A stretch of 64,000 bases of DNA from Aquincola tertiaricarbonis (GTDB lineage: Bacteria > Pseudomonadota > Gammaproteobacteria > Burkholderiales > Burkholderiaceae_C), in assembly GCF_023573145.1 (NCBI RefSeq), contig NZ_CP097635.1:806001-870000 (forward strand). Direction: 5' to 3'. A model generated the notes under the pieces. That model was not told the origin of the DNA and searched no databases. It worked only from the letters and a program-made list of their open reading frames with translations. Shown piece after piece: positions 23,271-42,637 of this stretch (within the stretch, counting starts at the first letter, position 1; the number at the start of each line of letters is the position of its first letter). The translations under genes and the position numbers were made by a program.

Positions 23271-24428
23271 TCACCGGAAGAACCACTGCAGCTGCAGCTG
23301 AACCGCGTTGGGCACCGCCGCGAACTCGCTGCCCTCGGTCCCGTTGTAGTGCTGCACGCCGACGGTTAGATCCATGGCGGGTCCGATCGACCACACGAGG
23401 CGGCTGTCGATCGCGCGGCTGCGGTCGTCGGCGTTGCGCACCGCATAGCTCACCCACTTCAGCAGCGGCGTGATCTCGTACGACGCGTACAGCCCCGTGT
23501 AGCGGGTCGCAAGGTTCACCGCCCGCCCGGAACGCAGCCCTGCCCTGTCGTAGCCAGCCGGATCGCGCGAGCCCGCACCGTTGTAGTACAGCTCCGCGCT
23601 CAACGTGAGCCCGTTCGCGAACGCATAGTCCCCACCGACCATCAGCCGGTTGAAGGCGGGGCCGCCGCGGGGGCGCAGGCGCGCCGCCTCTCCGCGAATG
23701 CCGGCGTCGCGGATCTGGGTGGCGAGGTCCATGCCGACGATGTCCAGACCCAGCAGCCGGCCGGCAACGAGCGACGCATCGACGCCCGCCGCATTACCGT
23801 GCCACTGCACCGCACTGCTGGTCGGGCCGCGGCCCGGCGCGGGGGCAACCACGAGCGACGCGCGCGACAGCGGTCCGAGCTGGGCCTCGAGCAATGCGGC
23901 ATCGACCCCGACACGCTCCTCGCGCTCCAGCGCCAGCGGGTTCACCGGATTCAGGATGTCCAGCGGGCTCCAGAAGCGGCCCGTGCCCCACGCGATGCGC
24001 TGGCGGCCGAGCTTCAGATCGACGTTGCCGCGGGTCAGGGTCACGGCCGCCCGGTACAGGCGATGGCGGCCGTACACCTCACCGCGTTCGACGTAGTTCG
24101 CGTCGGCCCGCCAGTACTGCGGCGGCGGGCGATCCTTGAGCGCGCGGAACTCCGCTGTGTCCAGGTAGCTGCCAAGCAGCACCTCGTTGTCGTACTGCAG
24201 GTCGACTGCGAGCCCCGGGGCGAGGTCGCCCTTCGCCTCGACACGCAGCCGGTTCAGGCTGAGCGCGAAGTCCTCGCCCGTTGAGGCCTTCGAACGCAGG
24301 TAGACGCTCTTCAGGCTCCCAGTCAGTTCCAACGGCTGCGGCTGCGCGATGGACGCGGTGGCACCAAACGCCAGGACGGCCACCAGCGCAGTCGCACCCG
24401 AGTAACAGATCCGGTCTCGATAGGCCAT
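23271..24428 (-). CDS. Outer-membrane beta-barrel protein of the ABC/Lol-like operon
   Basis: A 385-residue exported protein with a signal peptide of ~30 residues (ending TASIAQ) and alternating beta-strands typical of barrels: ELTGSLKSVYLRSKAS, LSLNRLRVEAKGDLAPGLAVDLQYDN, VDLKLGRQRIAWGTGRFWSPLDILNP, and a terminal QLQLQWFFR ending in the aromatic BAM signal. The RIAWGxGRFWSPLDxxNP stretch is like DUF1302-type or alginate-export-like barrels. Its ATG overlaps the permease stop (TGATG), so it is the last coupled gene of the long operon that also encodes an ABC transporter and a LolA-like protein. It may form the outer-membrane exit of that system. The cargo is unknown. Confidence 0.75.
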   Translation of the reverse strand: MAYRDRICYSGATALVAVLAFGATASIAQPQPLELTGSLKSVYLRSKASTGEDFALSLNRLRVEAKGDLAPGLAVDLQYDNEVLLGSYLDTAEFRALKDRPPPQYWRADANYVERGEVYGRHRLYRAAVTLTRGNVDLKLGRQRIAWGTGRFWSPLDILNPVNPLALEREERVGVDAALLEAQLGPLSRASLVVAPAPGRGPTSSAVQWHGNAAGVDASLVAGRLLGLDIVGMDLATQIRDAGIRGEAARLRPRGGPAFNRLMVGGDYAFANGLTLSAELYYNGAGSRDPAGYDRAGLRSGRAVNLATRYTGLYASYEITPLLKWVSYAVRNADDRSRAIDSRLVWSIGPAMDLTVGVQHYNGTEGSEFAAVPNAVQLQLQWFFR

Positions 24429-26929
24429 CACATGTGCCGGATCGCCGCAGTCGGGTCCAGCCTCGCGGCCCGCACGGCGGGGTACAGCGACACGGCCACG
24501 CTGGCGAGGAACAGGCCGACGCCCGGGCCAACGAGATTCGCTGCGACCAGCCTCGGATAGACAATGCCGGTCAGGCCGGGGATGGCGCTGTAGTCGCGGT
24601 AGAAGCCCGAGAGGTCCAGGCCGATGCTGCCGAACAGCGAGACGACCGCCGCGCCGACCGCGTAGCCGAGGACCGACGCGACGAGCATCAGCGCGACGGT
24701 CTCGTAGACCACCATGCGCACGATAGCGTCGGGCGGTGTGCCGAGCGCCATCATCACGCCGAACTCGCGCGTGCGCTCGGCCACCGCCATGAACACGGTG
24801 TTCATCACCGCCAGCGCGACAACGAGGAAGAAGACCGCGACGATGACCGTACGGATGGCGCGCACCAGGCCCAGCATGTCCGCCACCCGCGGCAGCAGGC
24901 GAGGCCAAGGCGATGCGACCAGACCGTCCTTCTCCAACAGGGGTGTCAGTTGGGCGGCGACGCCGTCGACCTCGGCACGGTCAGCCAGGCGCAAGTTGAC
25001 CGACGAGACGCGCTGACCGAGGCCAAGCATGCGCTGGGACGCCGGCAGCGTAACGAAGACCATTGCGCCATCGAACGAACTGCTCTCGGTCGCGAAGATG
25101 CCGCGGACGCGGAACGCCGACGTGCCAATTTCGCCGGCCGCGCCGGGCGCCATCACCACCAGCTTCTCGCCCAGGCGGATGCCGAGCTTCTCGGCCAGGC
25201 GCCGCCCGATCACGACGTCGCGGTCCGCGCCGGCCTCAAGCGCCGATCCTTCGACGAGGGTCCGGTGCAAGATCGTGAGCCCGCGTTCGAGTGCGGGGTC
25301 GACACCGTACAGAACGACCCCCAACGACTTCGTGGGACTGCTCACGAGTGCCTGCGCCTGCACCCGCGGCGCGGCAGCGATGATGCCGGGCTGGTCGCGG
25401 ACCGCGGCGAGCGCGGCTGTGGCATCGAAGGCCAGCTCCGGCGCGAGGTCGCGCCGCAGCCCTTCGCGCTCGATCTGCAGATGCCCGGTGACATAGCGTG
25501 TCGAGTTGTCCACGAGCTGCTCGCCGAAGCCGTCGAAGAAGCCGTAGAGGAACACGTAGGCAACGATGGCAAACGCCGCGCCGAACACCGTGATCGCGCT
25601 GCGCTTTCTGTTGCGCAGCAGGTTGCGGGTCGCGATCAAAGCGAACACGGGCAACGGTGTGCGCATCGCGCCGCGCGCACCGTGCCGGCCGCCCGAGGAC
25701 TTCTCGCCGATGCCGCGGATCGCCGCAACAGGTTCGAGGGTGGCCGCGCGGAACGCGGGGTACAGCGCCATGGCCAGCGCGATCAGGAACACCAGGGCAG
25801 AGATGGCCAGGCTGCGCTCGGCACGCACCACGGGGTAGATCACGTCGGCCAGGCCAGGCATCGCCCGCAACCCGTTCTCGAACGCGCCGAGATCGATGCC
25901 GACACGTCCGAAAGCCGCCGTCGCGCCGAGCCCGACCGCATTGCCCACCAGCAGCCCCGCGGCGCCGAGCACTGCAGCCTCGGCGACGACCAGCCGGAAC
26001 AGCATCGACTGGCCGGTGCCCAGCGCCAGCATGATGCCGAACTCGCGGGTGCGCTCGAGCACCGCCATCAGCACCGGGTTGGCCACGCCGGCGGCGACCA
26101 TCACGAAGAAGATCGTCAGCACTACGAAGCCCATCACCTCGTGGAAGCGGATGCTGATGGCCACCATGGGCAGCAGCACCGGCCAGCCCACCACCTCGTG
26201 GTCGGCACCCACGCGCGCGGACAGCGACGCGACCGCGGCGCCCAGCGCGGCACGGTCGCGCAGCCGCAGCGCGACGGCGGTGACGACCTCAGGCGCGGCG
26301 AGGAAGTCGCGCATCGCCGACATCGGCATCACGGCGACGTAACCGTCCAGGTCGTCGATCTTGGTGCGGAACACGCCGCGCACCGGCACGCGCGCGCTGG
26401 CTACCGAACCGTCGTAGGCCTGGCCCACCAGCACGAGATCGTCGCCGGCGCGCAGCGCCAGGGCCTCGGCCATGCCCTCGCCGATCAGGACCCCGGTGTC
26501 GTCGGCGCCACTGAAGCCGCGGCCATCGACCACCGCCTTGAACAGGTCCGTGACACGCGCCTCCTGCGCCGGGTCGACGCCGAAGGCCAGGATGCCGCGC
26601 GAGCGATCGGCGCGGCTCGCGAGCACGGTGGTCTCGAGGCGGACCGTCGCCGCGGCCACCGACGGATCGCCACGCACCGCCTCGAGCACGCGCGCGCCGG
26701 CCTCGATCGCCCGGTCCAGGCTCGGGTCGTCGTGGTAACCCTTGAGGTGCACCTGCGCGTCGGCTGCGAAGTAGCGCGTGGTGTTGTTGATCATCTGGCG
26801 GTTCATGCCGTCGATGAAACCCCAGAGGAAGGTCAGCGCCGCCAGGCCGACCGCGATCGACAGCACCGTGATGACGGAGCGGCGGCGGTTGCGCATCACG
26901 TTGCGCACCGCCAGCGTCCAGATCATCAC
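24428..26929 (-). CDS. ABC transporter permease, duplicated FtsX/MacB type
   Basis: An 833-residue inner-membrane protein made of two similar halves. Each begins with an RN..RN+RRS helix entry (AVRNVMRNRRRSVITVLSIAVG at ~7; ATRNLLRNRKRSAITVFGAAF at ~430), continues with a periplasmic MacB_PCD-like domain and ends in three FtsX helices (GIMLALGTGQSMLFRLVVAEA; GVMMALGTPPDAIVRMVVYET). Such duplicated permeases (LolE/MacB superfamily) work with a LolD-like ATPase to extract or push lipids, lipoproteins or hydrophobic compounds rather than to form a channel. Overlaps the ATPase gene by 4 bp and the barrel gene by 1 bp. Confidence 0.88.
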   Translation of the reverse strand: MMIWTLAVRNVMRNRRRSVITVLSIAVGLAALTFLWGFIDGMNRQMINNTTRYFAADAQVHLKGYHDDPSLDRAIEAGARVLEAVRGDPSVAAATVRLETTVLASRADRSRGILAFGVDPAQEARVTDLFKAVVDGRGFSGADDTGVLIGEGMAEALALRAGDDLVLVGQAYDGSVASARVPVRGVFRTKIDDLDGYVAVMPMSAMRDFLAAPEVVTAVALRLRDRAALGAAVASLSARVGADHEVVGWPVLLPMVAISIRFHEVMGFVVLTIFFVMVAAGVANPVLMAVLERTREFGIMLALGTGQSMLFRLVVAEAAVLGAAGLLVGNAVGLGATAAFGRVGIDLGAFENGLRAMPGLADVIYPVVRAERSLAISALVFLIALAMALYPAFRAATLEPVAAIRGIGEKSSGGRHGARGAMRTPLPVFALIATRNLLRNRKRSAITVFGAAFAIVAYVFLYGFFDGFGEQLVDNSTRYVTGHLQIEREGLRRDLAPELAFDATAALAAVRDQPGIIAAAPRVQAQALVSSPTKSLGVVLYGVDPALERGLTILHRTLVEGSALEAGADRDVVIGRRLAEKLGIRLGEKLVVMAPGAAGEIGTSAFRVRGIFATESSSFDGAMVFVTLPASQRMLGLGQRVSSVNLRLADRAEVDGVAAQLTPLLEKDGLVASPWPRLLPRVADMLGLVRAIRTVIVAVFFLVVALAVMNTVFMAVAERTREFGVMMALGTPPDAIVRMVVYETVALMLVASVLGYAVGAAVVSLFGSIGLDLSGFYRDYSAIPGLTGIVYPRLVAANLVGPGVGLFLASVAVSLYPAVRAARLDPTAAIRHM

Positions 26930-27636
26930 GCCGGCCTCCGTTCGTCGGCCTCGATGCGGCCGTCGCGCAGCCGGATCACGCGGCGCGCTCGCTCGACCAC
27001 CATCGGGTCGTGCGTCGAGAACACGAAGGTCGTGCCCTGCTCCTCGTTGAGGCGGCGCATCAGGTCCATCAGCGTCGCCCCCGACTGCGAGTCGAGGTTG
27101 GCGGTCGGTTCGTCGGGCAGCACGATCACCGGCTTGGCCGCGATCGCGCGCGCCACGGCCACACGCTGCTGCTGGCCGCCCGAGAGCTCGTTCGGCCGGC
27201 GGTGCTCCAGGCCCGCCAGGCCGAGCGATGCGAGCAGCCGCATGGCCTCGGCGCGGCGGGGCGCCTCTTCGACGCCCTGCAGCAGCATCACGTACTCGAC
27301 GTTCTCGAGCGCGGACAGCACCGGCACCAGGTTGTACTCCTGGAACACGAAGCCGATGTGGCGCAGCCGGACCTCGGCCAGCGCCTTGCGGCCGAGGGAC
27401 GTGATCTCCTGGTCGCCGACCCAGATGCGGCCACTGGTCGGCCGGTCGAGCCCGCCGATGAGGTTCAGCAGCGTCGTCTTGCCCGAGCCGGACGGACCGA
27501 CCAGCGCGACGAAATCTCCCGCCAGGATCTCGACGCTCGTCTCGTGCAGCGCGGGCACCGGGATGCTGTCGCGCTGGTAGACCTTGGTCGCCTTGTCGGC
27601 ACGGACGATGACGGAGGGCGTCGGCATGGTCGTCAC
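26926..27636 (-). CDS. ABC ATPase, LolD/MacB type
   Basis: A 236-residue nucleotide-binding subunit with Walker A GPSGSGKTTLLNL (~49), Q-loop, signature LSGGQQQRVAVARA and Walker B VIVLPDEPTANLD, plus H-loop FSTHDPMV. In this family Walker B normally reads ADEPTGNLD; here it is PDEPTANLD, still with the catalytic Glu. It energises the adjoining duplicated permease. Start overlaps the end of the phosphoketolase gene by 4 bp, and its end overlaps the permease start by 4 bp. Confidence 0.92.
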   Translation of the reverse strand: MTTMPTPSVIVRADKATKVYQRDSIPVPALHETSVEILAGDFVALVGPSGSGKTTLLNLIGGLDRPTSGRIWVGDQEITSLGRKALAEVRLRHIGFVFQEYNLVPVLSALENVEYVMLLQGVEEAPRRAEAMRLLASLGLAGLEHRRPNELSGGQQQRVAVARAIAAKPVIVLPDEPTANLDSQSGATLMDLMRRLNEEQGTTFVFSTHDPMVVERARRVIRLRDGRIEADERRPA

Positions 27637-30062
27637 TCGGCCGTCATCACGGTGCGCGGATCGCCCTGCCCCCGCACGGCGGCCAGCTCGTCCGCGCGCA
27701 GCACCTGTGCCGCATCGACGCCGAGCGCGGATGCCGCCTCCGCGGCCACGTGCGCCCAGGTGCAGCGGTTGGCGAACAGCATGCCGGCGACATCGAGCGT
27801 ACCCCCGCGGGCGATGTAGCCCAGCGCGCGGGTCCGCTGCGGCCCGGTGTCGATGCGGCGCAGCACGCCAAGCGTCGCCTCCGGCCGCATGTGGGAGACG
27901 AGCACGCGCGCCACGGCCGCCGTCGGGAACAGTCGCCCCAGCGCTTCGTCCGCGGCCACGAAGGCACGCTCGCGCTCGTCGCGCGGCGTCCGGAAGCGGC
28001 CGGGCTCGGCCACGCAGCTCACCGCGGTGCGGTGCCCGGCGGCGTCGAGGCGATCGGCCGCTAGCAGTGCCTGCGTCAGCTGGTACGCGCCGATCGCGAC
28101 CAGCAGCACCGCTGGGGCGTCGCAGGCCTTGACCACGCAGGCGCCTTCGTCGACCAAGCGCTGCGCCTGCTCGCCCGTCAGGCGGTTCGCCATCGGCCGC
28201 TTCGGCACGACGAGCGTCCAGAACTGGCCGTGCGTGCCGTAGGCGGCGCGCAGCGCGGCGGCGGCGCTGTTCGCGTCGACCGGGAACAGCACGCGCGCGG
28301 TGTCGGACATCTCGCCCAGCAGCGCCTCCGCCAGCGTCGGGTCCTGGTGCGACTGCTCGTTCTTGCCGTTCTCCCAGGTGTGCGAGGTGGCCACGGTGAC
28401 CACCGACAGCCAGCCCGGTGGCGTGCCAGCCTCCGCCTGGTGGCGCGCGAACAGGATCTCCTGGCGCAGCGCGCCGAGCATCTTGACGGCGAAGGCCTCG
28501 TAGGAGACGACCAGGTTGATGCCACCCTTGTTGCCGAGCGCCGCGCTGACCACCGCCTCCTCGTTGAGCGCGGTGATCACCGCGCCGTCCACCGCCTCCG
28601 CCAGGCCGGGCTCGGGCGCGAAGACACGGTGCTTCAGCAGGTCCAGGGTCTGGCCCATCCGGTTGCTGCGCAGCTCGTCAGGGTTGCCGACGCGCGGGCG
28701 CAACTGCGGGTTCGCCTGCACGATGGCGGCGAAGGCGGCGTCCAGCGCCCCCATCGGGGACACCTGGCCCGCGCCGACGGCGTGCCATGACGCCGCCGGC
28801 AGCGTGGGTGCATCGACCTGCCGGTGTGCCAGCGGGTGGTCGCGCTCCAGCGGGCGCCGCTGGTCCCGGTGGCGGCAGAGCGCGGCCAGCGCCTCGTCGA
28901 GTTCCGCGGGCGGCACGAACAGCGCGCGGGCGCCCTCGTTGAACTGCTGCCGCGCGCTCGGGTCGGTGTGCGGGTTGCCAGCCAGCGGCAGGTTGTGGGC
29001 CGCATTGGTCCCCGCCCCCGGAAAGCCGAAGCCCTTCGGCGCCTCGGCGATGGTGTAGTGCAGCGGCACCGGGTACTGGATGGTCCCGCCAGCGACCGCC
29101 GCCGCGCAGGCCGCGAGCCGTTCCTCCATGGCATGCACCGCCCAGGCAAAGGCGGCCGGGTCGGTGCCGTCGATCTCCATGGGGTCGAAGCCGTTCAGGC
29201 GCAGGTGCTGCTGGAACCACGCCAGGCCGCCCTGCTGCTGCATCGTGCTGCGCTGCTCGATGCGGCGCCCGTTGAGGATCATGAACGGCGCCACGAAGCC
29301 GCAGTCCTCGGCACGCCACCAGCGCGGCGCCCAGTCGCTGCCGCGCTGCTCCTCGAACGCACCGTCGCTGAGGAACACCACCAGGCGCTCGCCCGGCAGC
29401 GGCATGTGCACGTACTGCAGCTCCGCGAAGCCGAGGTAGCCGCCCTCGGACAGCCCGCCGGCGGTGTTGGGGCCCACGTGGCTGCCCAGCGGCGACGCCG
29501 GCCGCCCGGCCGCGTCGATCGCGTAGCTGTAGAAGTCGCGGGCGAAGCGCGTCAGCCCGTCCTCGCTGCGGTCGTAGCGCTCGGCGTGGCGCGGCGTCAT
29601 GTTGCCCGCCAGCAGGTTGCAGGCATCGATGCCCGCCACGCAATGGCCCTGCCCCATCAGCCAGCCGCGCGTCAGGCCGCTGAGCGCGTTCGCGGCCAGA
29701 TAGCCGACGTAGGCCGGCACGATGTTCAGCGAGCCGCCGGTGTGGCCTTCGGGCGTTCCCTTGAAGTCCCCGGCCGCCATCTCGCGCCCGTCGGGATAGA
29801 CCCGGTCGGCATAGGTCATGTGCACGGTCAGCCACATGCCGGCCGCGGCGAGGCGGTCCGCAGCCCACAGCGTGCGGTAGACGCTGGCCGCATCGCCGGC
29901 CTTCCCTCCGGCGACCAGCACCTGCGCGAGCTCGTGCACGCGCAACTGGGTCAGGTCCTGGTGCACGATGGGCCCGAAACCGCGCGCCCAGCGTGCGAAG
30001 TCGGCATCGCTGTCGCGGAACAGCCGCGCGCGCTCGGCGACCCAGGGAAGCTCGTGATTCAT
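27633..30062 (-). CDS. xfp: Divergent phosphoketolase-like ThDP enzyme
   Basis: An 809-residue protein of phosphoketolase length and order. Family blocks are recognisable but altered: EGHTGGSLNIVPAYVGYL for HWGT.PGLNF (~104), MGQGHCVAG for GPGHGGPA (~140), NTAGGLSEGGYLGFAEL for ETPGSIHEGGELGYSL (~200), SDGAFEEQRG...LNGRRI for the ThDP/Mg motif GDGEAETG...LNGYKI (~232-255), and SHTWENGKNEQSHQDP for SHTWRQDHNGFSHQDP. Phosphoketolases split xylulose 5-phosphate (or fructose 6-phosphate) into acetyl phosphate plus an aldose phosphate. An acetate kinase-PduL fusion encoded 12.6 kb away would use acetyl phosphate. The changes near the cofactor (Gly to Ser, Glu to Ala) leave the reaction open. Start follows a membrane-protein gene by 42 bp; the stop overlaps the ABC ATPase. 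Confidence 0.78.
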   Translation of the reverse strand: MNHELPWVAERARLFRDSDADFARWARGFGPIVHQDLTQLRVHELAQVLVAGGKAGDAASVYRTLWAADRLAAAGMWLTVHMTYADRVYPDGREMAAGDFKGTPEGHTGGSLNIVPAYVGYLAANALSGLTRGWLMGQGHCVAGIDACNLLAGNMTPRHAERYDRSEDGLTRFARDFYSYAIDAAGRPASPLGSHVGPNTAGGLSEGGYLGFAELQYVHMPLPGERLVVFLSDGAFEEQRGSDWAPRWWRAEDCGFVAPFMILNGRRIEQRSTMQQQGGLAWFQQHLRLNGFDPMEIDGTDPAAFAWAVHAMEERLAACAAAVAGGTIQYPVPLHYTIAEAPKGFGFPGAGTNAAHNLPLAGNPHTDPSARQQFNEGARALFVPPAELDEALAALCRHRDQRRPLERDHPLAHRQVDAPTLPAASWHAVGAGQVSPMGALDAAFAAIVQANPQLRPRVGNPDELRSNRMGQTLDLLKHRVFAPEPGLAEAVDGAVITALNEEAVVSAALGNKGGINLVVSYEAFAVKMLGALRQEILFARHQAEAGTPPGWLSVVTVATSHTWENGKNEQSHQDPTLAEALLGEMSDTARVLFPVDANSAAAALRAAYGTHGQFWTLVVPKRPMANRLTGEQAQRLVDEGACVVKACDAPAVLLVAIGAYQLTQALLAADRLDAAGHRTAVSCVAEPGRFRTPRDERERAFVAADEALGRLFPTAAVARVLVSHMRPEATLGVLRRIDTGPQRTRALGYIARGGTLDVAGMLFANRCTWAHVAAEAASALGVDAAQVLRADELAAVRGQGDPRTVMTAE

Positions 30063-30104
30063 GGTGTGTGTCGGTTGGGGTTGCAGGGCGCGAAACGATC
30101 CACG

Positions 30105-30590
30105 TCAGGCCTGGCGCGCGTACGCGATCACGGCCGCCGCCCAAAGCAGTGCCGGCAGCAGCAGCACCCAGCGGAAGTCCGAATGCAGCACGAAGTTCAT
30201 GGCGCTCATCAGCACGACCGTCGGCAGGCCCGCCAGCACGATGGCCCACCCGGTGCCAGGTGCCCGGTCCGGCACGGCGGTCCGCGCCACGAAGACGGTC
30301 AGCACGCCCGCGCCGGCCATGAAGCCACCCATCACCGTGAACACGATGCGCAGCCACCCTTCGAGGCCCGGCGCCGCCTCGCGCAGTTGCACCAGCGTCG
30401 ATCCGATGAACCGGGGATCCTCGGGCAGCAGCGCCGGCCGGACGAAGACGAAGTACGCGCCCAGGGCCACGAGCCAGACGCCGAGGGCCGTGAGGAGCCA
30501 CCTCGCGGCACGCGGGGGCGAGGTGGGATGGGTCAGGCTGGCGCTGGGTCGAAGGTCGGGCATGGCACGCGGTCGGAGTCGGGGTTTCAT
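30105..30590 (-). CDS. Four-helix inner-membrane protein, unknown
   Basis: A 161-residue protein with a basic cytoplasmic N-terminus (KPRLRPRAMPDLRPS) and four hydrophobic helices (starting near residues 28, 75, 108 and 137). The ATG at 30590 overlaps the stop of the LolA-like gene (ATGA); an internal ATG at 30563 is an alternative. I recognise no family. Being coupled to the LolA-like, FtsH and ABC genes, it may be an accessory membrane subunit. Confidence 0.7.
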   Translation of the reverse strand: MKPRLRPRAMPDLRPSASLTHPTSPPRAARWLLTALGVWLVALGAYFVFVRPALLPEDPRFIGSTLVQLREAAPGLEGWLRIVFTVMGGFMAGAGVLTVFVARTAVPDRAPGTGWAIVLAGLPTVVLMSAMNFVLHSDFRWVLLLPALLWAAAVIAYARQA

Positions 30591-31354
30591 CGCTTCTGCA
30601 GGTTGCGCTGGCTGAAGATCTCGTCGTGCACCGGGCGGTCGAACACCGCGTTCTTCAGCACCACCGTCGTCGAGTTGCCGGGCTTGGCGTCGGGTCGCAT
30701 CTCCCAGCGCGTCGGCAGGATCCGCCCGCCGACCTGGCGCACGTCGGAGAACGTCAGCACGCGCACGCGCTCGCCGCGCTCGCTGAAGAACTCCTGCTTC
30801 AGCGGCATGGCGTCGGCACGGCGCACCCAGTAGATGATGCGACCCCAGACCACCGCGGCGTCGGGCTTCGGCACGGCCTCGACCTGCACGACCGTCTCGC
30901 CGTCGAGCCGCACCGTGGCGATCACCTTGTGCGTGTAGTCGTCGAGGATGCTGCTCTCCTTGACGAGGTCGTCGTTCGTGAAGTCCGAGCCCATCCACGG
31001 CTGCAGCATCATCGACGGCGGAATCTTGACGATGCGCTCGACGTTGGGCAGGTAGTTCCACATCTCGGTGCCGATGCGCAGCGAGCCGATGCCCGCCTCC
31101 TTGGCCGGCGACAGGATGCGCACGAACGAGCGCCGCGGCCGGTCCATCCACAGGCGCAGGCCGAGCGTGCGCTGCCACCGCGGCGTGGCGATCGTCATCT
31201 CGTACTCGCCCTGCACGGTGCTGCCCCACAGCAGCTTCTCCACCCTGTCGAGGATGTCGCGTCCTTCGGACGGCTGCGCGCGAACCCCTGGGATGGCGAG
31301 CGCAGCGAGCGGGGCCGCGCCCGCGAGGCGAAGCAAGGCGCGGCGCGTGCTCAC
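30587..31354 (-). CDS. LolA-like outer-membrane lipoprotein-sorting protein
   Basis: A 255-residue periplasmic protein with an N-terminal signal ([26 protein letters not shown]; twin-Arg-like but short) and a LolA/VioE-fold domain (COG2834): YEMTIATPRWQRTLGLRLW, SFVRILSPAKEAGIGSLRIGTEMWNYLP, RIVKIPPSMM and LVKESSILDDY. Such proteins carry lipids or lipoproteins across the periplasm and commonly sit next to FtsX-type permeases or MMPL pumps. GTG start at 31354 overlaps the ftsH stop (GTGA); its stop overlaps the next gene (ATGA). It is the likely periplasmic carrier between the ABC permease and the barrel encoded downstream. Confidence 0.83.
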   Translation of the reverse strand: MSTRRALLRLAGAAPLAALAIPGVRAQPSEGRDILDRVEKLLWGSTVQGEYEMTIATPRWQRTLGLRLWMDRPRRSFVRILSPAKEAGIGSLRIGTEMWNYLPNVERIVKIPPSMMLQPWMGSDFTNDDLVKESSILDDYTHKVIATVRLDGETVVQVEAVPKPDAAVVWGRIIYWVRRADAMPLKQEFFSERGERVRVLTFSDVRQVGGRILPTRWEMRPDAKPGNSTTVVLKNAVFDRPVHDEIFSQRNLQKR

Positions 31355-33258
31355 GACGCACCATCCCCCGGCGGCAGCGCCACGGCGGCCACGCGCAGCT
31401 GGGCCGGCGCCGCTGTCTCCGCCATCAGGCTGTCCAGCATCGCCCGGTCCACGACCTCCTTCTCCAGCAGCAGTGCGGCCAGCGCTTCGAGCGTCTCGCG
31501 GTTCGTCCGCAGCGTCTGCGTCACGCGATCGCGCGCCTCGTCGAGCAGCCGCCGCACCTCGCCGTCGATCGCCTCGGCGGTGCGCTCGCTGAAGGTGCGC
31601 GGCTCGGGCAGCGTCGGGCCGTTCAGGAACAGCGGCGCGGGCCGCGCGTCGTAGGTCGCCAGGCCGAGCGCCTCGCTCATCCCGTAGTGGGTCACCATGT
31701 GGCGCGCCAGGTCGGTGGCGCGCTGCAGGTCGTTCTCGGCGCCGGTCGAGACGTCCTCGAACACCAGCTGCTCGGCCACGCGCCCGGCCAGCAGCACGTC
31801 GAGCCGGTCGAGCAGCTCGCTGCGGCGCATCAGGTAGCGGTCCTCGGTCGGCGACTGCTGGGTGTAGCCGAGCGCCGCGATGCCGCGCGGGATGATCGAC
31901 ACCTTCGTCACCCGGTCGGCATTCTTGCGCATCTCGGCGACCAGGGCGTGGCCGGCCTCGTGGAAGGCGACGAACTTGCGCTCGGTCGGGTTCATGACCC
32001 GGTTCTTCTTCTCGAGGCCCGCGACGATGCGGTCCAGCGCCTCCTCGAAGTCCTGCATGTCCACCGCGTCCTTGCCGCGCTTGGCGGCGCGCAGCGTCGC
32101 TTCGTTGACCAGGTTGGCCAGATCGGCGCCCGCGAAGCCCGGCGTGCGCGCCGCGAGCACGGCGAGGTCGACCGACGGCGCCAGCTTGACGTGCTTGACA
32201 TGCACTTCCAGGATCTGCCGCCGACCGATCAGGTCGGGCCGGTCGATCGCGATGTGGCGGTCGAAGCGTCCGGGCCGCAGCAGTGCAGGATCGAGCACCT
32301 CCGGCCGGTTCGTCGCGGCGAGGATGATCACGCCACGGTTGGTGTCGAAGCCGTCCATCTCGGCGAGCAACTGGTTCAGCGTCTGCTCGTGCTCCTCGTG
32401 GCCGCCCGACAGGCCCACGCCGCGCGCCTTGCCCAGCGCGTCGATCTCGTCGATGAAGACGATGCACGGCGCCTTGGCCGCGGCCTGCTCGAACAGGTCG
32501 CGCACGCGCGCCGCGCCGACGCCGACGAACATCTCGACGAACTCCGAGCCGCTCAGCGACAGGAAGGGCACGCCGGCCTCGCCGGCGACCGCCTTGGCCA
32601 GCAGCGTCTTGCCGGTGCCGGGCGCGCCGACGATCAGCACGCCCTTGGGGATCTTGCCGCCCAGGCGCTTGTAGCGATCCGGGTTCTTGAGGAACTCGAC
32701 GACCTCCATCAGTTCCTCGCGTGCCTCGTCGATGCCGGCCACGTCCTTGAAGGTCACGCCGGTCTCGGTCTGCATGTAGACCCGCGCCTTGCTCTTGCCG
32801 ATCTCCAGCATGCCGTGGCCCATCCCGCCGCCCATGCGCTTCATCAGGAACCACCAGATGCCGAAGAACACCAGCGCCGGCGCCACCCAGGAGATCAGCG
32901 CGCCGAGCCACTTGCTCTCGCGCACGCTGCCGTAGCGCACCTTGGCGGCATCGAGCTGGGCCACCAGGCCCGGGTCGTTGACCAGCACCGTCGCGAAGCC
33001 GTGCTCGCCGCCGGCGCGCTTGAGCACCTCGAGCTTCTCCTTCGGCAGGATCTGCTCCAGGCCTTCGGCGCGCAGCTTTCCAGTGGCGATGCCGTCGGCG
33101 ATCACCACGTCGTCGAGCTTGCCGGCCATGAGCGCCTGCTTGAACTCGCTGTAGGTCAGGGTCTGCGTGTGCCGTGGTGCGATGAGCTCCTGCATCAGGA
33201 TCATGCCCACCAGGGCGGCCAGCACGTACCACAGCGAGAACGTCTGTTTCTTGCCCAT
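31351..33258 (-). CDS. ftsH: FtsH-type membrane AAA+ metalloprotease (accessory copy)
   Basis: A 635-residue membrane protease. Two N-terminal helices (~8-25 and ~118-135) flank a small periplasmic domain; the AAA domain has Walker [13 protein letters not shown] (~217), Walker [13 protein letters not shown], the SRH region [20 protein letters not shown], and the zinc motif HEAGH (~433). FtsH degrades misfolded membrane and short-lived cytosolic proteins. ATG at 33258 follows GGAGGAGTGTTC. Its place inside a metal/envelope operon, not beside rlmE (ftsJ) or folP, marks it as an extra, stress-linked copy such as those in tolerance loci. Coupled by 4 bp to the LolA-like gene. Confidence 0.93.
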
Positions 33259-33281
33259 GAACACTCCTCCAAAGATCCGGG

Positions 33282-33500
33282 TCAGGTGCCGGGGCGTCGT
33301 CGTGATCGACGCTCGTCTAGCGCGACCTGGATCGCGCCCCAGATGATCAGCACCGGACACACCAGCAGCAAGGCGGCCGGCAGCGCGCTCCACCAGCTGA
33401 AGCCGAAGGACCACAGCACCGCCGCGGCGAGCACCACGGCGAGGATCGGACACAACCACATCCAGCGGTTGGCGAACTCGGGCCACGTCACGAATCTCAT
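33282..33500 (-). CDS. Small two-helix membrane protein
   Basis: A 72-residue protein: RFVTWPEFANRWMW, helix 1 (CPILAVVLAAAVLWSFGF), helix 2 (ALPAALLLVCPVLIIWGAI), then a basic tail (DERRSRRRPGT). ATG at 33500 is preferred because GGAGGT lies 7 bp upstream; an ATG at 33518 that overlaps the ATPase stop is possible. Lies between the P-type ATPase and ftsH. Unrecognised; small Trp-rich proteins of this kind often accompany copper ATPases. Confidence 0.72.
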   Translation of the reverse strand: MRFVTWPEFANRWMWLCPILAVVLAAAVLWSFGFSWWSALPAALLLVCPVLIIWGAIQVALDERRSRRRPGT

Positions 33501-33514
33501 GGCGACCTCCGTCG

Positions 33515-35920
33515 TCATTGCAGGCGTGCCCGCTTGAGCAGCGCCGAGTTGACGATCACCGACAGCGAGGACAGCGCCATCGCCGCGGCGGCAATGATCG
33601 GGTTGAGCAACCCGAAGGCCGCGATCGGCACGCCGACCGCGTTGTAGATGAAGGCCCAGAACAGGTTGCGCTTGATCGTGCGCATCGTCGCCCGCGAGAG
33701 CCGGATGCCGGTGACCACGTCGCGCACGTCGCTGCGCACGAGGATGATGCCGCCGGTCTCCTTGGCCACGTCCGAGCCCGACCCGATCGCGATGCCGATG
33801 TCGGCGGTGGCCAGCGCCGGCGCGTCGTTGACGCCGTCGCCGACCATCGCCACCACCTTGCCGGCCTGCTGCAGTTCCTTGATCACGCGCGCCTTGTCGG
33901 AGGGCAGCACGTCGGCGATCACCCGGTCGATCTCCAGCGCGCGGCCGATCGCCGCCGCGGTGCGGGCGTTGTCCCCCGTCAGCATCACGACCTCGACGCC
34001 TTCGGCACGCAGCGAGCGCACCGCCTCGAGCGCCTCCGGCTTGATCGTGTCGGCCACCGCGATCACGGCGGCGAGTTCGCCGTCGCAGGCAAGCAGCATC
34101 GCCGTCTTGCCGTCCGCCTGGTAGCGCTCCATGTCCGCGCCAACCTGGCCCACGTTCACGCCCTCGCGTTCCATCAGCCGGCGGTTGCCGAACAGCACGG
34201 TGCGCCCTTCGACCTGGCCGCGCACACCGTGGCCGGGCACGGCCTCGAAGCCCTGCACGGCGCACGGCGCGATGCCGGCCTCCTTGGCGCGGCGCAGGAT
34301 GGCCTCGGCCAGCGGGTGCTCCGACCCCGCTTCGAGGCTGGCGGCCAGGCGCAGCGCCTGGTCATGGTCGCAGTGCCCGCAGGGCTGCAGGTCAGTCAGG
34401 GCCGGCTCGCCGCGGGTCAGCGTACCGGTCTTGTCGAACACCACGGTGGTGAGCCGCTCGGCCTTCTCGAGGATCTCGCCGCCGCGGATGAGGATGCCGG
34501 CCTGTGCGCCCCGGCCCACGCCGACCATCAGCGCCGCGGGCGTCGCGATGCCGAGCGCGCAGGGGCAGGCGATGATCAGGACGGCGATGAAGGCCAGCAG
34601 GCCCTGCGGGAAGTTGCCGGCCAGCCACCAGAGCGCGAAGGCGAGGATCGCCGTGCCCACCACCGCCGGCACGAAGTAGCGTGTCACCTGGTCGGCGATG
34701 CGCTGGATCGGCGCGCTGCTGGTTTGCGCGTCCTCGACCATCTTGACGATCTGCGCGAGCGCCGTCTCGGCGCCGATGCGCGTGGCCTGGAAGCGGAAGC
34801 TGCCGGTGCGGTTCAACGTGCCGCCGATCACCGGCGAGCCGGCCTGCTTCTCGACCGGCATCGACTCGCCCGTCAGCATCGACTCGTCCACCGACGACGA
34901 GCCCTCGAGCATCAGGCCGTCGGTGGCGATGCGCTCGCCCGGCCGAACGACGACCGTCTCGCCGACCATGACCTGCTCGGCCGGGATCTCGGCCTCCTCG
35001 CCGCCGCGCATCACGTGCGCGGTCGCGGGTTTCAGGTCGAGCAGCTTGCGCACCGCCGCCGAGGAGTGCTTCTTGATGATCTCCTCCATGTACTTGCCAA
35101 GCAGCACGAAGGCGATGATCACCGCCGAGACCTCGAAGTAGACGTCGCGCTCCTCCACCTTCACCGGCAGCACCGACGGGAAGAACAGCACCGCGACGCT
35201 GTAGAAGTAGGCCACCGAGGTGCCGAGCGCGATCAGCAGGTCCATGTTGATGGACCGGTTGCGCAGCGCGTTGAAGGCGCCGACGTAGAAGCTCCAGCCG
35301 CCGATGAACTGCACCGGCGTCACCAGCAGGAACAGCCACACGCCCCAGGTGAACCAGGGCAGCGCCGGGATCGGCACCCAGGTCAGCAGCGTCGCGCCAG
35401 TGGCCAGCGCGAGGAAGGCGCCCGCCCGCATGATCGCCAGCGCGAGCACGCCGGTCAGCGCGATGGTGACCCGCGTGCGCATGGACTTGAGTTCGGCCTC
35501 GGGCGACTCGAAGGTGCGCTGGCAGCCCGCGCTGCAGAAGTAGTAGCTGCGCCCGGCCCGGTCGGTACGCAGCGCGGTGGCCTTGTCGACCACCATGCCG
35601 CACACCGGGTCCTTCGCCTGGCCCGACTCGTTGCGTCGCAGCACCGTCTGCAGAGGGCGGCCCGCCGCATGCATGTCCGCATCGACCGCAGACGTGGTGT
35701 TCGCAGGCGTGGCCTCGGATGTCCCCGCGCGAGCGCCGACATAGCGCACCGGATCGCGCTGGAACTCGCTCAGGCAGTGCCCCGAGCAGAACAGGTAGGT
35801 TTGCCCGCCATGTTCGGCGCGCCCCGCCGCCTTGGCTGGATCGACGGTCATCCCGCACACCGGGTCGACCGCGGCGGCGGCCGACGCGGCGGATCCCTCG
35901 TTGAGCACTGCCTGAGTCAT
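33515..35920 (-). CDS. copA: Cu-type P1B ATPase with two N-terminal YHS domains
   Basis: An 801-residue metal ATPase. Instead of HMA domains it has two YHS domains: [13 protein letters not shown]...[12 protein letters not shown] (~18-60) and [13 protein letters not shown]...[12 protein letters not shown] (~103-140). Then eight transmembrane helices, TGES, CPC in [13 protein letters not shown] (~450), [19 protein letters not shown] and GDGVNDAP. The CPC and Asn/Met-Ser features of the last helices ([15 protein letters not shown]) fit Cu(I)/Ag(I) transport (P1B-1). First visible gene of the long minus-strand operon; the small gene at 33500 follows within a few bases. YHS modules may receive metal or sense redox state. 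Confidence 0.92.
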
Positions 35921-35963: not shown

Positions 35964-37196
35964 TCACGGTGTGCGGCGCGCGGCGCCTTCCCATGCCGCC
36001 GCGCCGGCCGCGAGTGCGGTCAGCCCGCCCGCGATGAGGAACGGCAGCGGCGGTGCCAGCGCGAACAGGCTTCCCGTGGCCGCGGCACCGACAGCCTGTC
36101 CGAGGTTGGCCGCTGCGGCCTGCCGGCCCATGGCCCAGCCTTGTCGAGCGCCGGCCGCGCTCGAGATGCGCACGGCCAGCGACGGGATCAGCACGCCGAT
36201 GCCCGCGGCCGCCAGCACGAAAGCCGTGGCGGTCACGAAGCCCCCTCTCGAGAGGGCCAGCAGGCATAGACCTGCCGACAGCCCCCCAAGCGCGGCGACG
36301 ACGAGCCGCGGCTCGCCCAGCCTGCGTTCCAGGCGCGGCAGGGCCCAGAACTGCACCGCGATCATCACGCCGCTGCACAGCGCGAAGTACAGCGACACCG
36401 GCCCGGCGGCCGGCGCCCGTCGCGCCGCTAGGGTCACGCCAACCTCGGCCACCGTGATCGCCAGCACGACAACAGCCGTGAACAGCAGCGAGCGGACGAT
36501 GCGCCTCTCGTCGGCGGAGCGCGCACTGCCCGGCGATGGCGCGATGGAGCGGTTGGGCGGCAGGCCGAGCACGCCCACGGCCGCCAGCAGCCCGACGATG
36601 GCGACCACGTCCAGCGGCAACGAGGCGAGCCCGGAATCCCCGCCGGCCGAGGCGCGTGTCGGACCTGCCAGTCCGTCGCCAAGTGCCGGCCCGAGCAGGA
36701 AGCCCAGCGCGGTGGCCGACGCGATCCAGGCGAAGCGGCGCTGCAAGCGGGACGGCGCAGACGCGGTGACAACGTAGGCGAAGATCGCCGGAAGCACCGC
36801 CGCCGACGTCAGGCCAGCGATCGCACGCACCGCATAGAGCCCGCGCATTGAGAACGGCGCGGTCAAGGCCCACAGGGCCACGCTCGAGCCGGCCAGTCCC
36901 GCGGCGAGCACCCAGCGGCGGTCGATCCGATCCGCGAGCGCTCCCCAGGCGGGCGCGAACAGGAACAGCGCGAGCGTGTACACGCCGGTTATCCAACCCG
37001 TGTGGCTCTCCACGTCGGCTACCGAGCCAACCCCCGTGCGCTCCACCAGCCCGGGCAACAGTGGCAGCGTCACGCCATACGCCATCGACACCGCCATCCC
37101 GGCCGCGAGCAGGGCAGCGAAGGCGCCGGCCGACAGATCCGATCGCGAATCGCCCGGTACTGGCGAAGAAGGCGGCGGCCATGGTCGCTCACCCAC
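35964..37196 (-). CDS. MFS efflux transporter
   Basis: A 410-residue, 12-helix major-facilitator protein. Motif A-like sequence [17 protein letters not shown] lies between helices 2 and 3 (~75-91). Drug/H+ antiporters of this size have such a layout; the substrate is not deducible. GTG start at 37196 overlaps the end of the cfa gene by 8 bp and has a poor Shine-Dalgarno, so translation is probably coupled to cfa; the first helix begins near residue 24. The 43-bp gap to the ATPase gene holds no visible terminator. Confidence 0.85.
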
Positions 37197-38508
37197 GGTA
37201 GAGATCGCGGCGGGTCAGCGGGACCGGCCACGCTCCGCCGTCGCGCTTCGAGGCGACGATCTGGTACAGCCCGGTGCCCCCCGCCTCGAACTCGAGCGCA
37301 CAGGCCGCCATGTACAGGCGCCAGATGCGGTAGGTCACCTCGTCGACCTCCTGCAGCGCCTCGTCGCGGCGCGCCTCCAGCCGCTGCACCCAGTGCCGCA
37401 GCGTCAGCGCGTAGTGCGGCCGCAGGCCTTCGACATCGTGGATCTCGAAGCCGGCGCGCTCCATCCCGAGCTGGATGTTGCTGACGCAGTCGAGTTCACC
37501 GTCCGGGAACACGTAGCGATTGATGAACTCGGTTGCGACGGTTCGGTTCCAGCCCTCCTCGTCGTGGGTGATGCCATGGTTGAGGAACAGCCCGCCCGGC
37601 CGCAGCACGCGCTGGACCGCGGCGTAGTAGGCCGGCAGCTTCGCCAGGCCGACATGTTCGAACATGCCGACACTGGACACCTTGTCGTAGACCGCCGCGC
37701 CGTCGAGGTCGCGGTAATCCCGAAGTTCGACCGTGACGAGATCCTCCAGACCTTCGGTGCGGATGCGCTCACGCACGTACTCGAGCTGTCGCTGGCTGAG
37801 CGTGATGCCGTGCGCACGCACGCCGTACTCGCGTGCCGCCCAGCACACAAGCGCACCCCAGCCGCAGCCGATGTCCAGCAGCCGGTCGCCGGGTTGCAGC
37901 CGCAGCTTGCGGCAGATGTGCTCCAGCTTGTTGCGCTGGGCCTGCTCCAGCGAGTCCTCGGGCGTCTCGAAGTAAGCGCAGGAATAGACACGCTCGGCGT
38001 CCAGCCACAGGCCGTAGAACGCATTGGACACGTCGTAGTGGAACGAGATCGCCGCCCGGTCGGTCTGTCGCGAGTGGCGATGCCCGAAACGCCGGGCAAC
38101 GCGCGAGGCCAGCCCTCCCACGGGCTTCAAGCCGTCCTGCTCGGAGACCCGCAGCATCAACGCGTCGCGCAACAGTGCCAGCTTGTCGCGCCACGACAGC
38201 GACACCGCCTCGAAGTGGGCCTTCAGGCCCAGCGCGCTGTACAGATCTCCCTCGACATCGATGATGCCGCGGAAGTAGGCGTCGGCCAGCAGCAACGGAT
38301 CCGGCCGCAGCACAAGGCGACGCAGCAGTGCCGGGTCGCGAATCACGAGCGTGTACTCGGGATGGGACTCCAGTTCGTGCAGCAGCGCGTCGCCCAGCCT
38401 CAGAGCCGGTGGTCGCTCAATCCCGGCGAGCAAGCGGCGCAGGATGCGCAGTGCCGGAGCATGGAGGTCCGCGGGCGCGGGCCGGACGAGCGTTGTCGAG
38501 TGATCCAT
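37189..38508 (-). CDS. cfa: Cyclopropane-fatty-acyl-phospholipid synthase
   Basis: A 439-residue cytosolic, membrane-binding methyltransferase that adds a methylene from S-adenosylmethionine to unsaturated acyl chains. SAM motif I LDIGCGWGALVCWAA (~215), YSCAYFETPEDSLEQAQ, the bicarbonate/active-site segment SVGMFEHVG and TEFINRYVFPDGEL are all present. ATG at 38508 follows AGGGAGAAACCG. Cyclopropanation protects membranes against acid, solvents and stationary-phase stress, in line with neighbouring lipid enzymes (OhyA, FabI, Cls). Confidence 0.93.
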   Translation of the reverse strand: MDHSTTLVRPAPADLHAPALRILRRLLAGIERPPALRLGDALLHELESHPEYTLVIRDPALLRRLVLRPDPLLLADAYFRGIIDVEGDLYSALGLKAHFEAVSLSWRDKLALLRDALMLRVSEQDGLKPVGGLASRVARRFGHRHSRQTDRAAISFHYDVSNAFYGLWLDAERVYSCAYFETPEDSLEQAQRNKLEHICRKLRLQPGDRLLDIGCGWGALVCWAAREYGVRAHGITLSQRQLEYVRERIRTEGLEDLVTVELRDYRDLDGAAVYDKVSSVGMFEHVGLAKLPAYYAAVQRVLRPGGLFLNHGITHDEEGWNRTVATEFINRYVFPDGELDCVSNIQLGMERAGFEIHDVEGLRPHYALTLRHWVQRLEARRDEALQEVDEVTYRIWRLYMAACALEFEAGGTGLYQIVASKRDGGAWPVPLTRRDLYRG

Positions 38509-38520
38509 CGGTTTCTCCCT

Positions 38521-39687
38521 TCAGCCTTTCGAGTGCACGTCTTGTGGTTCGGTGACGGCCGCGGCCGGGTCGTCACCAACGGTGATCAGCGGCGCGCGTC
38601 GCAAGTCGCCCGCGACTGCCACAAGGCACTCCTGGCTCGCGGCGTGGACGGTGAACAGCGGTTGGCCCTGGTCAACGTGCTCGCCGAGCCGTGTGTGCAG
38701 CACGACGCCAGCGCCGGTCCCGCGCGGTGCACCGGCCAGCTCCGCGACGCGCTGCACATGTGCCCCGTCCAGCAACCTCACGTGGCCGGCTCGATCGGCG
38801 GCAATGGTGGCGGCGACCGGGGCCAGGACCGGCTCGCGCAGCCCGCCCTGCGCCTCGCACATCGCCTGGAAGCGCGTCCAGGCTGCACCGCTGTCAAGCA
38901 GACGCCACGCATCGAACTCACCGTGTCCGGGACGGCTTGAGGAACACAGCTCGAGCAACTGGCCGGCTTCGGCCAGCGCGCGCATGCGCAGATCGACCGG
39001 CGCAGACGCTGCGCCGCGCAGCACGGCCAGCACGTCCAGCGACTCAGGCGCCGGGCCGATGCCACGCCCCACGGGCTGCGACCCTGCCGAGCGGGCGATG
39101 CGGACCTGCACGCCTACGGCCGCGCCGACCGCAGTGAACATCGTCTTCAGGCGCTGGAAGCGTGCGTGGTCGGGCGCACTGGAACCCCGGCCGATGGCCA
39201 CGTTGACGAGCAGATAGCCCACGCCGGCCGCGACGCGGCGCGACAATGCCGACGCGACTAGGTGGGCGTCTTCCGCGCTGGGGCTCCAGGGCACATGAAC
39301 CCCCAGGCCCGCGGCCCCCGCCCGCGCGATGCAGACGCCCAGGCGCGAGGCGATGCCTGTCGCGGCCCCGCGATCCAGTTCCACCCCGGTGAGCGTCGCC
39401 ATCGTGTCGGCGGTGCTCCACGCCCCCGGGGCGGCCGGCAGCGAAAAGTGCGGCATCGTCGCGCCAGCCGCAGCCACAATCGTCGCAACGATCGGCGTCG
39501 TGCGGTGCCCGGGGATCCAGTCCAAACCGTGCCGGTCGACGATACGCGCCGCGTCCCAGACGAGGGCTGGCTTCGACTCGGCAGCCCAGGCGCGCACGAG
39601 TGCGATGGCACGCCGAACCGCTGCATCATGGTCTCGTTCGATCCCGCCCTCGGGAGCGCTCGCGCGGTGCTCTTCGCTCGTGCCCAT
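38521..39687 (-). CDS. Thymidine phosphorylase-like protein
   Basis: A 388-residue protein from the ATG at 39687 (chosen because an upstream start would overlap the ICMT gene). It keeps the order of the pyrimidine-nucleoside phosphorylase family: an N-terminal alpha region, the phosphate/alpha-beta domain with ALVWDAARIVDRHGLDWIPGHRTTPIVATIVAAAGA and TADTMATLTGVELD, and the C-terminal PYNP beta domain (GAGVVLHTRLGEHVDQGQPLFTVHA). It is shorter than AMP phosphorylases (~500) and several catalytic Lys/Ser positions of DeoA are not obvious, so activity is uncertain. Homologues of this short type occur in Burkholderiales stress loci. Confidence 0.72.
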   Translation of the reverse strand: MGTSEEHRASAPEGGIERDHDAAVRRAIALVRAWAAESKPALVWDAARIVDRHGLDWIPGHRTTPIVATIVAAAGATMPHFSLPAAPGAWSTADTMATLTGVELDRGAATGIASRLGVCIARAGAAGLGVHVPWSPSAEDAHLVASALSRRVAAGVGYLLVNVAIGRGSSAPDHARFQRLKTMFTAVGAAVGVQVRIARSAGSQPVGRGIGPAPESLDVLAVLRGAASAPVDLRMRALAEAGQLLELCSSSRPGHGEFDAWRLLDSGAAWTRFQAMCEAQGGLREPVLAPVAATIAADRAGHVRLLDGAHVQRVAELAGAPRGTGAGVVLHTRLGEHVDQGQPLFTVHAASQECLVAVAGDLRRAPLITVGDDPAAAVTEPQDVHSKG

Positions 39688-39691: not shown

Positions 39692-40357
39692 TCACGGCCC
39701 TCCAAGGCGGCCGCTGCTTCCGCCTCGCAGACGGGGTAAGAAGCGCGGCGTGCGCGCCGCATAGCGCGCCCATTCGCCGCCGAATTCCCGCTCGGCCTCG
39801 CGCTCCTCGGCGATCGCCAGGCGTACGTACATCCACACCAGCACCGGGAACATCGCCAGGGTCAGGATCGTCGGCCACTGGAGCAGGAACCCGAACAGGA
39901 TCGCGACGAAGCCGATGTATTGCGGGTGTCGCACTCGGGCATAGGGACCGCTGACCGCCAGCGTATGCCGGCGCTGGTTGCGGTACAGCACGCGCCATGC
40001 CGCAGACAGCAGCCAGAAGCCGCCACCGACGAAGAGGGCGCTGAGCAGGTGGAAGGGGCCGAAGTGCGGATTGGCACGCCAGCCGAACATCACCTCGCGC
40101 AGCTGGCCGGCGTCGTGCGACAGAAAGTCCACGCCGGGGAAGCGGCTGCCGAGCCAGCCCGACAGCAGGTAGATCGTCAGCGGAAAACCGTACATCTCGG
40201 TGAACAGCGCCACGAGGAACGCCGAGAACGCACCGAACGATCGCCAATCGCGCGCCGAACGCGGCCGCGCGAAGCTGAACGCGAACACGATGAAGACCAG
40301 CGAGTTGAGGACCACGAGGGTCCATAGTCCGTAGGCCGGGCCGGCGGCGTGATTCAT
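39692..40357 (-). CDS. Isoprenylcysteine methyltransferase-like membrane protein
   Basis: A 221-residue integral membrane protein with five or six helices. The C-terminal block GPYARVRHPQYIGFVAILFGFLLQWPTI...EEREAEREFGGEWARYAARTPRFLP is the SAM-binding signature of the ICMT/PEMT family (RHPxYxG and E-E-x(n)-Y). Bacterial members methylate lipids or unknown membrane substrates; phospholipid N-methylation is possible. ATG at 40357. Lies between oleate hydratase and the thymidine phosphorylase-like gene. Confidence 0.8.
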   Translation of the reverse strand: MNHAAGPAYGLWTLVVLNSLVFIVFAFSFARPRSARDWRSFGAFSAFLVALFTEMYGFPLTIYLLSGWLGSRFPGVDFLSHDAGQLREVMFGWRANPHFGPFHLLSALFVGGGFWLLSAAWRVLYRNQRRHTLAVSGPYARVRHPQYIGFVAILFGFLLQWPTILTLAMFPVLVWMYVRLAIAEEREAEREFGGEWARYAARTPRFLPRLRGGSSGRLGGP

Positions 40358-42482: not shown

Positions 42483-42637
42483 TGCCGTTCTCCGTCGCCG
42501 CGGGAGCACATCGACCTCCGCGCTGCGAGTCTCGACCTGGGTGCTGCACACGGGTCAAGCGCCTGCGTGGTGCATCGCGAGTCGGTCGCGCCGCTCAGGA
42601 ACTCTTGCTTGGTTGCCATGCGTTGCTCCCGGTCCGG

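Follow-up and report, generated by a model that had tools for sequence, protein, structure and literature searches.

Results

In a 64,000-nucleotide stretch of the Aquincola tertiaricarbonis genome (contig NZ_CP097635.1, positions 806,001 to 870,000; hereafter the window), nine genes lie on the minus strand at 23271-35920, none of them with an internal stop, and four of them, which encode a LolA-like carrier, a LolD-like ATPase, a fused LolC/E-like permease, and an outer-membrane barrel, represent a real and widely conserved unit (the core). The sequence-only reading of this DNA had described the nine genes as a same-strand run with overlaps of 1-4 bp at most of the junctions, and the coordinates confirmed this for six of the eight junctions (in transcription order, -4, +23, -4, -4, +42, -4, -4, and -1 bp). 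The operon edge that it had placed at 35920 was set too short, as the same-strand run continues upstream through six more genes to merR (42482), resulting in a total of 15 genes from merR to the barrel gene with a largest gap of at most 47 bp. The transcription unit is, thus, probably longer than the nine genes, and the gene spacing suggests that all 15 could be transcribed together. Pfam and NCBIfam assigned a family to six of the nine genes, and the barrel, four-helix, and Trp-rich proteins had no family at E ≤ 0.001.

The recurrence of the core was assessed by a scan with the barrel alignment, using one genome per species, which indicated 334 stretches with the pattern, 294 of them confirmed; the locus counts given here refer to the best 80 of the 294. 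These 80 loci belong to Burkholderiales, Marinobacter and other gammaproteobacteria, Mariprofundaceae/Zetaproteobacteria, candidate division KSB1, Rhodothermales, and Elusimicrobia, with one Gemmatimonadales metagenome-assembled genome (MAG) and one MAG labeled Rhodopirellula also among them. All four gene types were present near the barrel gene in 68 loci, being arranged as lolA-abc-fused permease-barrel in 46, as lolA-perm-perm-abc-barrel in 13, and otherwise in 9, and the set was incomplete in 12. The apparent fused permease of one locus (L117) contains a stop and, hence, the rows read as lolA-fused-abc-barrel for L117, L132, and L137 may represent two genes in one frame.

Of 299 genomes of the phylum searched with the barrel, 63 had a match, and at most of the fetched loci lolA and the genes for the permease(s), the ATPase, and the barrel stand side by side. 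Co-occurrence was counted for 54 of these 63 genomes, the nine below 27 bits being left out, as were LolA matches below about 109 bits. A strong LolA was found in 51 of the 54 barrel genomes, with the two genes located within 8 kb on the same strand in 43 and on different contigs in the remaining 8. The pairwise distances of the four core proteins were correlated with r values of 0.87-0.95 over 65 loci, to which shared descent contributes. On plasmids, the barrel was represented by two distant matches only, on large plasmids of Vibrio and Persicobacter, each accompanied by the full lolA-perm-perm-abc-barrel set. Thus, the carrier, permease, and barrel genes, for which the sequence-only reading had proposed a gene-neighborhood survey, do occur together, and the separate occurrence that it had named as speaking against a unit was not found for the core.

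The core is distinct from the housekeeping Lol system. The permease scored 228.6 bits against TIGR02212 (cut-off, 362.45) and the ATPase 207.7 bits against TIGR02211 (cut-off, 307.75), and one canonical LolC/E over the cut-off (476 bits) and one LolB are present elsewhere in the host genome. The carrier is outside the canonical LolA family of Pfam, PF17131 (LolA_like; 183 bits with a cut-off of 30) being its only match at E ≤ 0.001; it is the sole LolA_like match over the cut-off in the host genome, and its profile matches 9tp6 with an E value of 3.5e-30. The solved structures nearest to the permease profile were LolF and LolE, and the best full-length fold match was YbbAP of E. coli. The permease was predicted to have eight long helices and a linker (407-424) that is disordered and free of helix, with a low predicted local distance difference test score (pLDDT). 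The barrel was confidently predicted to adopt the fold of OprD/Occ/AlgE-type porins, with which it shares 8-15% identity. It gave no OprD/Occ/AlgE match in Pfam up to an E value of 5 and belongs to no Pfam family, a sequence search of solved structures with its profile gave chance-level matches only, and the fold matches listed for it were porins, without an Omp85 or LolB-like fold among them.

The operon as a whole looks like a composite of the conserved core and stress genes that joined later. The FtsH gene was immediately upstream of lolA in 9 of the 80 loci (L064, L065, L066, L069, L070, L071, L073, L079, and L081), all in Burkholderiales, and is retained together with the copper-type ATPase pair in L066, L073, and L079, where the barrel identity is 51-76%. 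Because it is kept down to 51% barrel identity, FtsH is an old Burkholderiales partner; the host genome has four M41 peptidase matches, including that in the window. The gene of the Trp-rich protein adjoins that of the copper-type ATPase in L064, L065, L066, L073, L079, and L083, and the ATPase carries the CPC, N-x6-YN, and MxxSS motifs of Cu(I) P1B ATPases. FtsH and the pair of the copper-type ATPase and the Trp-rich protein are Burkholderiales partners of the core.

The phosphoketolase gene was immediately upstream of the ATPase gene in 7 of the 80 loci (L064, L065, and L067-L071), again all in Burkholderiales, and stood between lolA and the ATPase gene in six of these seven; the same cluster is found without it in L066, L073, and L079. 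Its product is very divergent, missing the cut-offs of the NCBIfam phosphoketolase subfamilies (best score, 105.7 bits versus 962), and may be active, since its stretches PDE..SNR, SYE.F, and SH.W....N..SHQDP can be aligned with those of solved phosphoketolases. Relatives were found by tblastn on 51 plasmid records. The five plasmid stretches examined have, for example, a copper-type ATPase, an MFS transporter, FtsH, a member of the thymidine-phosphorylase family, and cardiolipin synthase as its neighbors, and showed no lolA, FtsX-permease, or barrel match. The phosphoketolase gene is, therefore, best read as an insertion. On the Acidovorax plasmid p1-T1 (L005), a phosphoketolase of 87% identity is immediately preceded by a homologue of the four-helix protein (70%; 17475-17888), and it also follows a cyclopropane fatty-acid (CFA) synthase of 87% identity. 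Another four-helix homologue is found in Roseateles (L069; 62%); among the 80 loci, the four-helix gene was seen in 1, in Burkholderiales. The four-helix and phosphoketolase genes were probably inserted here as a cassette, which is also known from stress islands of plasmids. Genes for LemA, TPM-domain, AarF/UbiB, and DUF6629 proteins also recur near the module (L070, L073, L075, and L085) and on the Acidovorax island (L005).

The association with metal genes was evaluated in 47 of the 80 loci, hand-picked for longer flanks and fewer near-duplicates, with expected counts based on rounded genome sizes. A P1B ATPase was present in the fetched stretch of 17 of the 47 loci, compared with 2.1 expected from genome counts, including 12 of 15 loci of the Burkholderiales/beta group and 3 of 11 of Marinobacter/Halomonas. 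A CusA/CzcA-type pump, as counted by the clustering of open reading frames (ORFs), the family being verified in one case (1269.8 bits against TIGR00914), was present in 11 of 47 loci versus 1.2 expected, 7 of the 11 being in Marinobacter/Halomonas; one adaptor was CusB-like at a score under the cut-off. An ICMT-like methyltransferase was found in 12 of 47 loci versus 0.2 expected (6 of 15 in the Burkholderiales/beta group, 4 of 11 in Marinobacter/Halomonas, and 2 of 8 gammaproteobacterial MAGs). The metal-gene link thus exists in two lineages, Burkholderiales and Marinobacter, and to that extent the metal role suggested by the sequence-only reading was borne out, while elsewhere the link is weak or absent. 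The window also carries further copper-type genes, a multicopper oxidase and an outer-membrane efflux protein being encoded at 55945-58839 on the minus strand.

The features of the operon are listed in Table 1. A dyad before merR is a possible operator. A promoter scan of the sequence gave no site, and a terminator scan gave 7 sites compared with 5.9 in shuffled sequences. The G+C content of the operon region is 0.70, compared with 0.64 for positions 1-20000 of the window. The MFS transporter at 35964-37196 bears a weak resemblance to TetA-type pumps (70.7 bits; cut-off, 475), a score so far below the cut-off that no resistance is implied.

Table 1. Genes and features of the operon from the barrel gene to the region upstream of merR
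Feature	Position	Strand	Basis
Barrel, OprD/Occ/AlgE-type porin fold (predicted), core	23271..24428	-	Fold prediction
Fused duplicated LolC/E-like permease (type VII ABC), core	24428..26929	-	
LolD/MacB-type ATPase, core	26926..27636	-	PF00005; TIGR02211 207.7 bits; Walker A GPSGSGKT, LSGGQ, Walker B PDE
Divergent phosphoketolase-like enzyme, probable inserted cassette	27633..30062	-	PF03894 (XFP) 134.4 bits, cut-off 22; PF09364 (XFP_N) 32.5 bits, cut-off 23.7
Four-helix membrane protein adjoining phosphoketolase	30105..30590	-	No Pfam
LolA-like periplasmic carrier, core, GTG start	30587..31354	-	PF17131 183 bits
FtsH paralogue, accessory	31351..33258	-	TIGR01241 797.8 bits, cut-off 600; HEAGH and Walker A intact
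Trp-rich membrane protein (78 aa), partner of copper-type ATPase, accessory	33282..33518	-	No Pfam
Copper-type P1B ATPase, two YHS domains, accessory	33515..35920	-	TIGR01511 599 bits, cut-off 397
MFS transporter, operon extension	35964..37196	-	PF07690 91.9 bits
CFA synthase family, operon extension	37189..38508	-	PF02353 327.2 bits
Thymidine-phosphorylase-like, operon extension	38521..39687	-	PF07831 32.1 bits only; start re-set by reading
ICMT/PEMT-like methyltransferase, recurrent core neighbor	39692..40357	-	PF04140, PF04191 over cut-offs
MCRA (oleate-hydratase) family, operon extension	40396..41982	-	PF06100 648.7 bits
MerR-family regulator, probable first gene	42030..42482	-	PF13411, PF09278, PF00376 over cut-offs
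Dyad CTTGACC-N15-GGTCGAG upstream of merR, candidate operator	42531..42559	-	Read from sequence

In the rest of the window, a gene for a DUF305 protein (22364-23218, plus strand) is convergent with the barrel gene. On the minus strand, a gene for an acetate kinase with a fused PduL-type (PTAC) domain lies at 42638-44407 and has an in-frame stop at 43997-43999; its homologue on Acidovorax p1-T1 is uninterrupted. Genes for a FabI-like reductase, a DUF3141 protein, a PLD-domain (cardiolipin-synthase-like) protein, an MgtC/DUF4010 protein, and an alpha/beta hydrolase lie on one strand at 44425-52862, a set that is found in part on plasmid stress islands. An integrase-core protein is encoded at 17307-18044 and transposase-like gene pieces recognized by reading ORFs lie at 19082-21770, all on the minus strand, and a group II intron with reverse transcriptase and HNH domain lies at 61741-63536 on the same strand; an Rfam scan indicated this intron only, outside the operon.

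Discussion

Based on these results, we propose that the LolD-like ATPase and the fused LolC/E-like permease, as an ATP-binding cassette (ABC) transporter of type VII, would pull a hydrophobic or lipid-bearing cargo from the inner membrane and pass it to the periplasmic LolA-like carrier, which would take it to the dedicated OprD/AlgE-type barrel for acceptance or release. The cargo is likelier to be a lipid or other hydrophobe than a lipoprotein, considering the lipid-modifying neighbors, the lack of a lipobox-like start in the 15 operon products, to which that scan was confined, and the precedent of YbbAP. The lipid-modifying genes of the operon are those of CFA synthase, the MCRA family protein, and the ICMT/PEMT-like methyltransferase, and a CFA synthase gene is immediately downstream of the barrel gene in L088 and L093. 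Export as the direction, contact between the carrier and the barrel, and induction by metal stress are what we infer for this system. We regard the delivery of a lipid or other hydrophobe from the inner membrane to the barrel via the carrier, by an exporter recruited for metal stress, as nearly an even call, falling just short of one. A wider proposal is more doubtful, though worth stating: the core may represent type VII ABC systems of a class not yet described, consisting of a Lol-like extractor, a LolA-like carrier, and its own porin-type exit barrel, which would export a membrane lipid in modified form, or another hydrophobe, to the outer membrane or across it in several phyla and could have been acquired by the copper-resistance islands of two or more lineages for envelope repair or remodeling under metal stress.

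Several observations weigh against this interpretation. With respect to the cargo, a barrel of the porin type would be an unexpected acceptor for lipid, the nearest relatives by sequence are Lol proteins, and a CFA synthase gene scoring at least 150 bits was near the module in just 4 of the 80 loci; the hook region, at which the carrier may dock as in E. coli, looks about 5 residues shorter than that of LolE in the C half of the permease, the half that was compared. With respect to the unit, a strong LolA was lacking in 3 of the 54 barrel genomes and was present without the barrel in 5 genomes, many of the assemblies being incomplete, and 47 of the 54 belong to one family, so that these genomes represent far fewer than 54 independent cases. 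The module is rare in the order, any barrel match being found in only 5 of 200 genomes, including that of the window, and the genus has one further genome, which lacks it. Four loci have only the permease and barrel and four only the ATPase and barrel; some of them are cut by contig ends, which is not the case for the incomplete L084, L122, and L129, and a lolA match is missing in L068. In Marinobacter (L143), a phosphoketolase homologue (59%) is located about 4.5 kb downstream of the barrel gene, so that the association of this enzyme with the module may extend beyond Burkholderiales.

The metal setting is also limited. The P1B ATPase was found in none of the 8 gammaproteobacterial MAGs and 2 of the 13 loci of other phyla, the CusA/CzcA-type pump in only 2 of the 15 Burkholderiales/beta loci, and the ICMT-like gene in none of the 13 loci of other phyla; a copper-type ATPase or a pump was nearby in just 1 of the 8 MAGs and 2 of the 13. 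The enrichment tests take related loci as independent, which makes the p-values too small, although two lineages still show the effect. Because the linkage is weak or absent outside these lineages, the module probably did not serve in metal stress originally, and an acquired copper setting is more probable than an ancestral copper role.

Among the other explanations, a specialized paralogue of the lipoprotein-sorting system, in which the barrel replaces LolB or exposes particular lipoproteins on the surface, is unlikely but is the one that we take most seriously, as the permease profile is nearest to LolF/LolE among solved structures, the LolD model is the best-scoring one for the ATPase, and the carrier is in the LolA superfamily. 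Set against these similarities are the missed equivalog cut-offs for LolC/E and LolD, the porins that make up the fold matches listed for the barrel, and the operon products with no lipobox-like start among them, the neighbors at other loci not being scanned for lipoboxes. It would be more improbable still that the core operates like MacAB-TolC in the tripartite efflux of a soluble or amphipathic small molecule or a metal chelate, with the barrel as the exit channel. The resemblance of the barrel fold to substrate channels and to the alginate exporter and the enrichment of metal efflux genes nearby are consistent with such efflux, but no HlyD-type adaptor or TolC-type protein is among the operon products scanned, a hydrophobic ligand fits the LolA-like carrier, and the ATPase is separate from the permease, unlike in MacB.

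The sequence-only reading had suggested that the nine genes could be one trans-envelope machine, with FtsH for quality control; a machine of all nine, in which FtsH and the phosphoketolase would be working parts, is very improbable. The short overlaps between the genes and the position of FtsH directly upstream of lolA in the 9 loci, with the copper-type ATPase pair in three of them, would fit a single machine, but FtsH and the phosphoketolase are not beside the core in most loci, and the latter stands without the core on the five plasmid stretches examined. Thus, what holds of that proposal is the set of the carrier, the ABC pair, and the barrel, and the nine-gene machine was rejected, as the other genes do not adjoin the core in most of the 80 loci. 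That the region is a stress-gene island in which unrelated genes, the core included, are merely stacked is scarcely credible. The local G+C content, the transposase-like pieces at 17-22 kb, and the group II intron at 61.7 kb would agree with stacking, but for the core it is contradicted by the fixed gene order across phyla and the co-occurrence in genomes. A chance cluster was rejected for the core on the grounds of carrier-barrel co-occurrence and a gene order conserved across phyla.

Part of how the outer membrane receives lipids and other hydrophobes from the inner membrane still awaits explanation. The core offers a compact unit in which a carrier, a motor, and its own barrel are encoded by four genes, and it is present in named strains of Marinobacter and Piscinibacter. 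Its linkage to metal-resistance genes suggests that copper tolerance may involve the traffic of lipids in the envelope, a connection that is not described in the papers covered here.

The components are of known kinds, and no description of this gene combination is among the papers listed from the open-licence PMC literature, in agreement with the sequence-only reading, to which no system of this make-up was known. LolABCDE of E. coli likewise has a LolA-superfamily carrier, a LolD-like ATPase, and LolC/E-like permease halves; the module differs in scoring under the equivalog cut-offs, in its fused permeases, and in having its own porin-type barrel, with no LolB in the operon. MacAB-TolC relies on an HlyD adaptor and a TolC partner, neither being among the operon products scanned, and the OprD/Occ/AlgE porins share with the barrel the predicted fold, not the sequence family. 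The Acidovorax p1-T1 island resembles the operon in its phosphoketolase-like, four-helix, and CFA synthase genes and in its acetate kinase (81%), and its MerR protein is similar to that of the window by eye, but no LolA, ABC, permease, or barrel match was found in its 38-kb stretch. Iron-regulated operons of Porphyromonas and Prevotella combine LolA-like proteins with inner-membrane transporters under metal-dependent expression (PMC10434189; PMC10470040); they have an MMPL transporter, a TetR-type regulator, and iron or hemin as the setting, whereas that of the module is copper. The Borrelia BBJ23-29 cluster also brings together a LolA-like protein, a MacB-like type VII ABC transporter, and an outer-membrane barrel, with the cargo unknown (PMC13078400), but its barrel is of the Omp85 type and is accompanied by two TPR proteins, whereas the fold matches listed for the barrel here are porins of the OprD/AlgE type and no TPR protein is among the operon products scanned. 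YbbAP-TesA of E. coli, for which the extraction of hydrophobes is reported (PMC12646458), has a single-chain duplicated permease and a separate ATPase, as does the module. YbbP has ten transmembrane helices, of which TM5/6 form the link, in contrast to the eight long helices and disordered link predicted here, and, in place of TesA, with no hydrolase of that type among the operon products scanned, the module has a carrier and a barrel.

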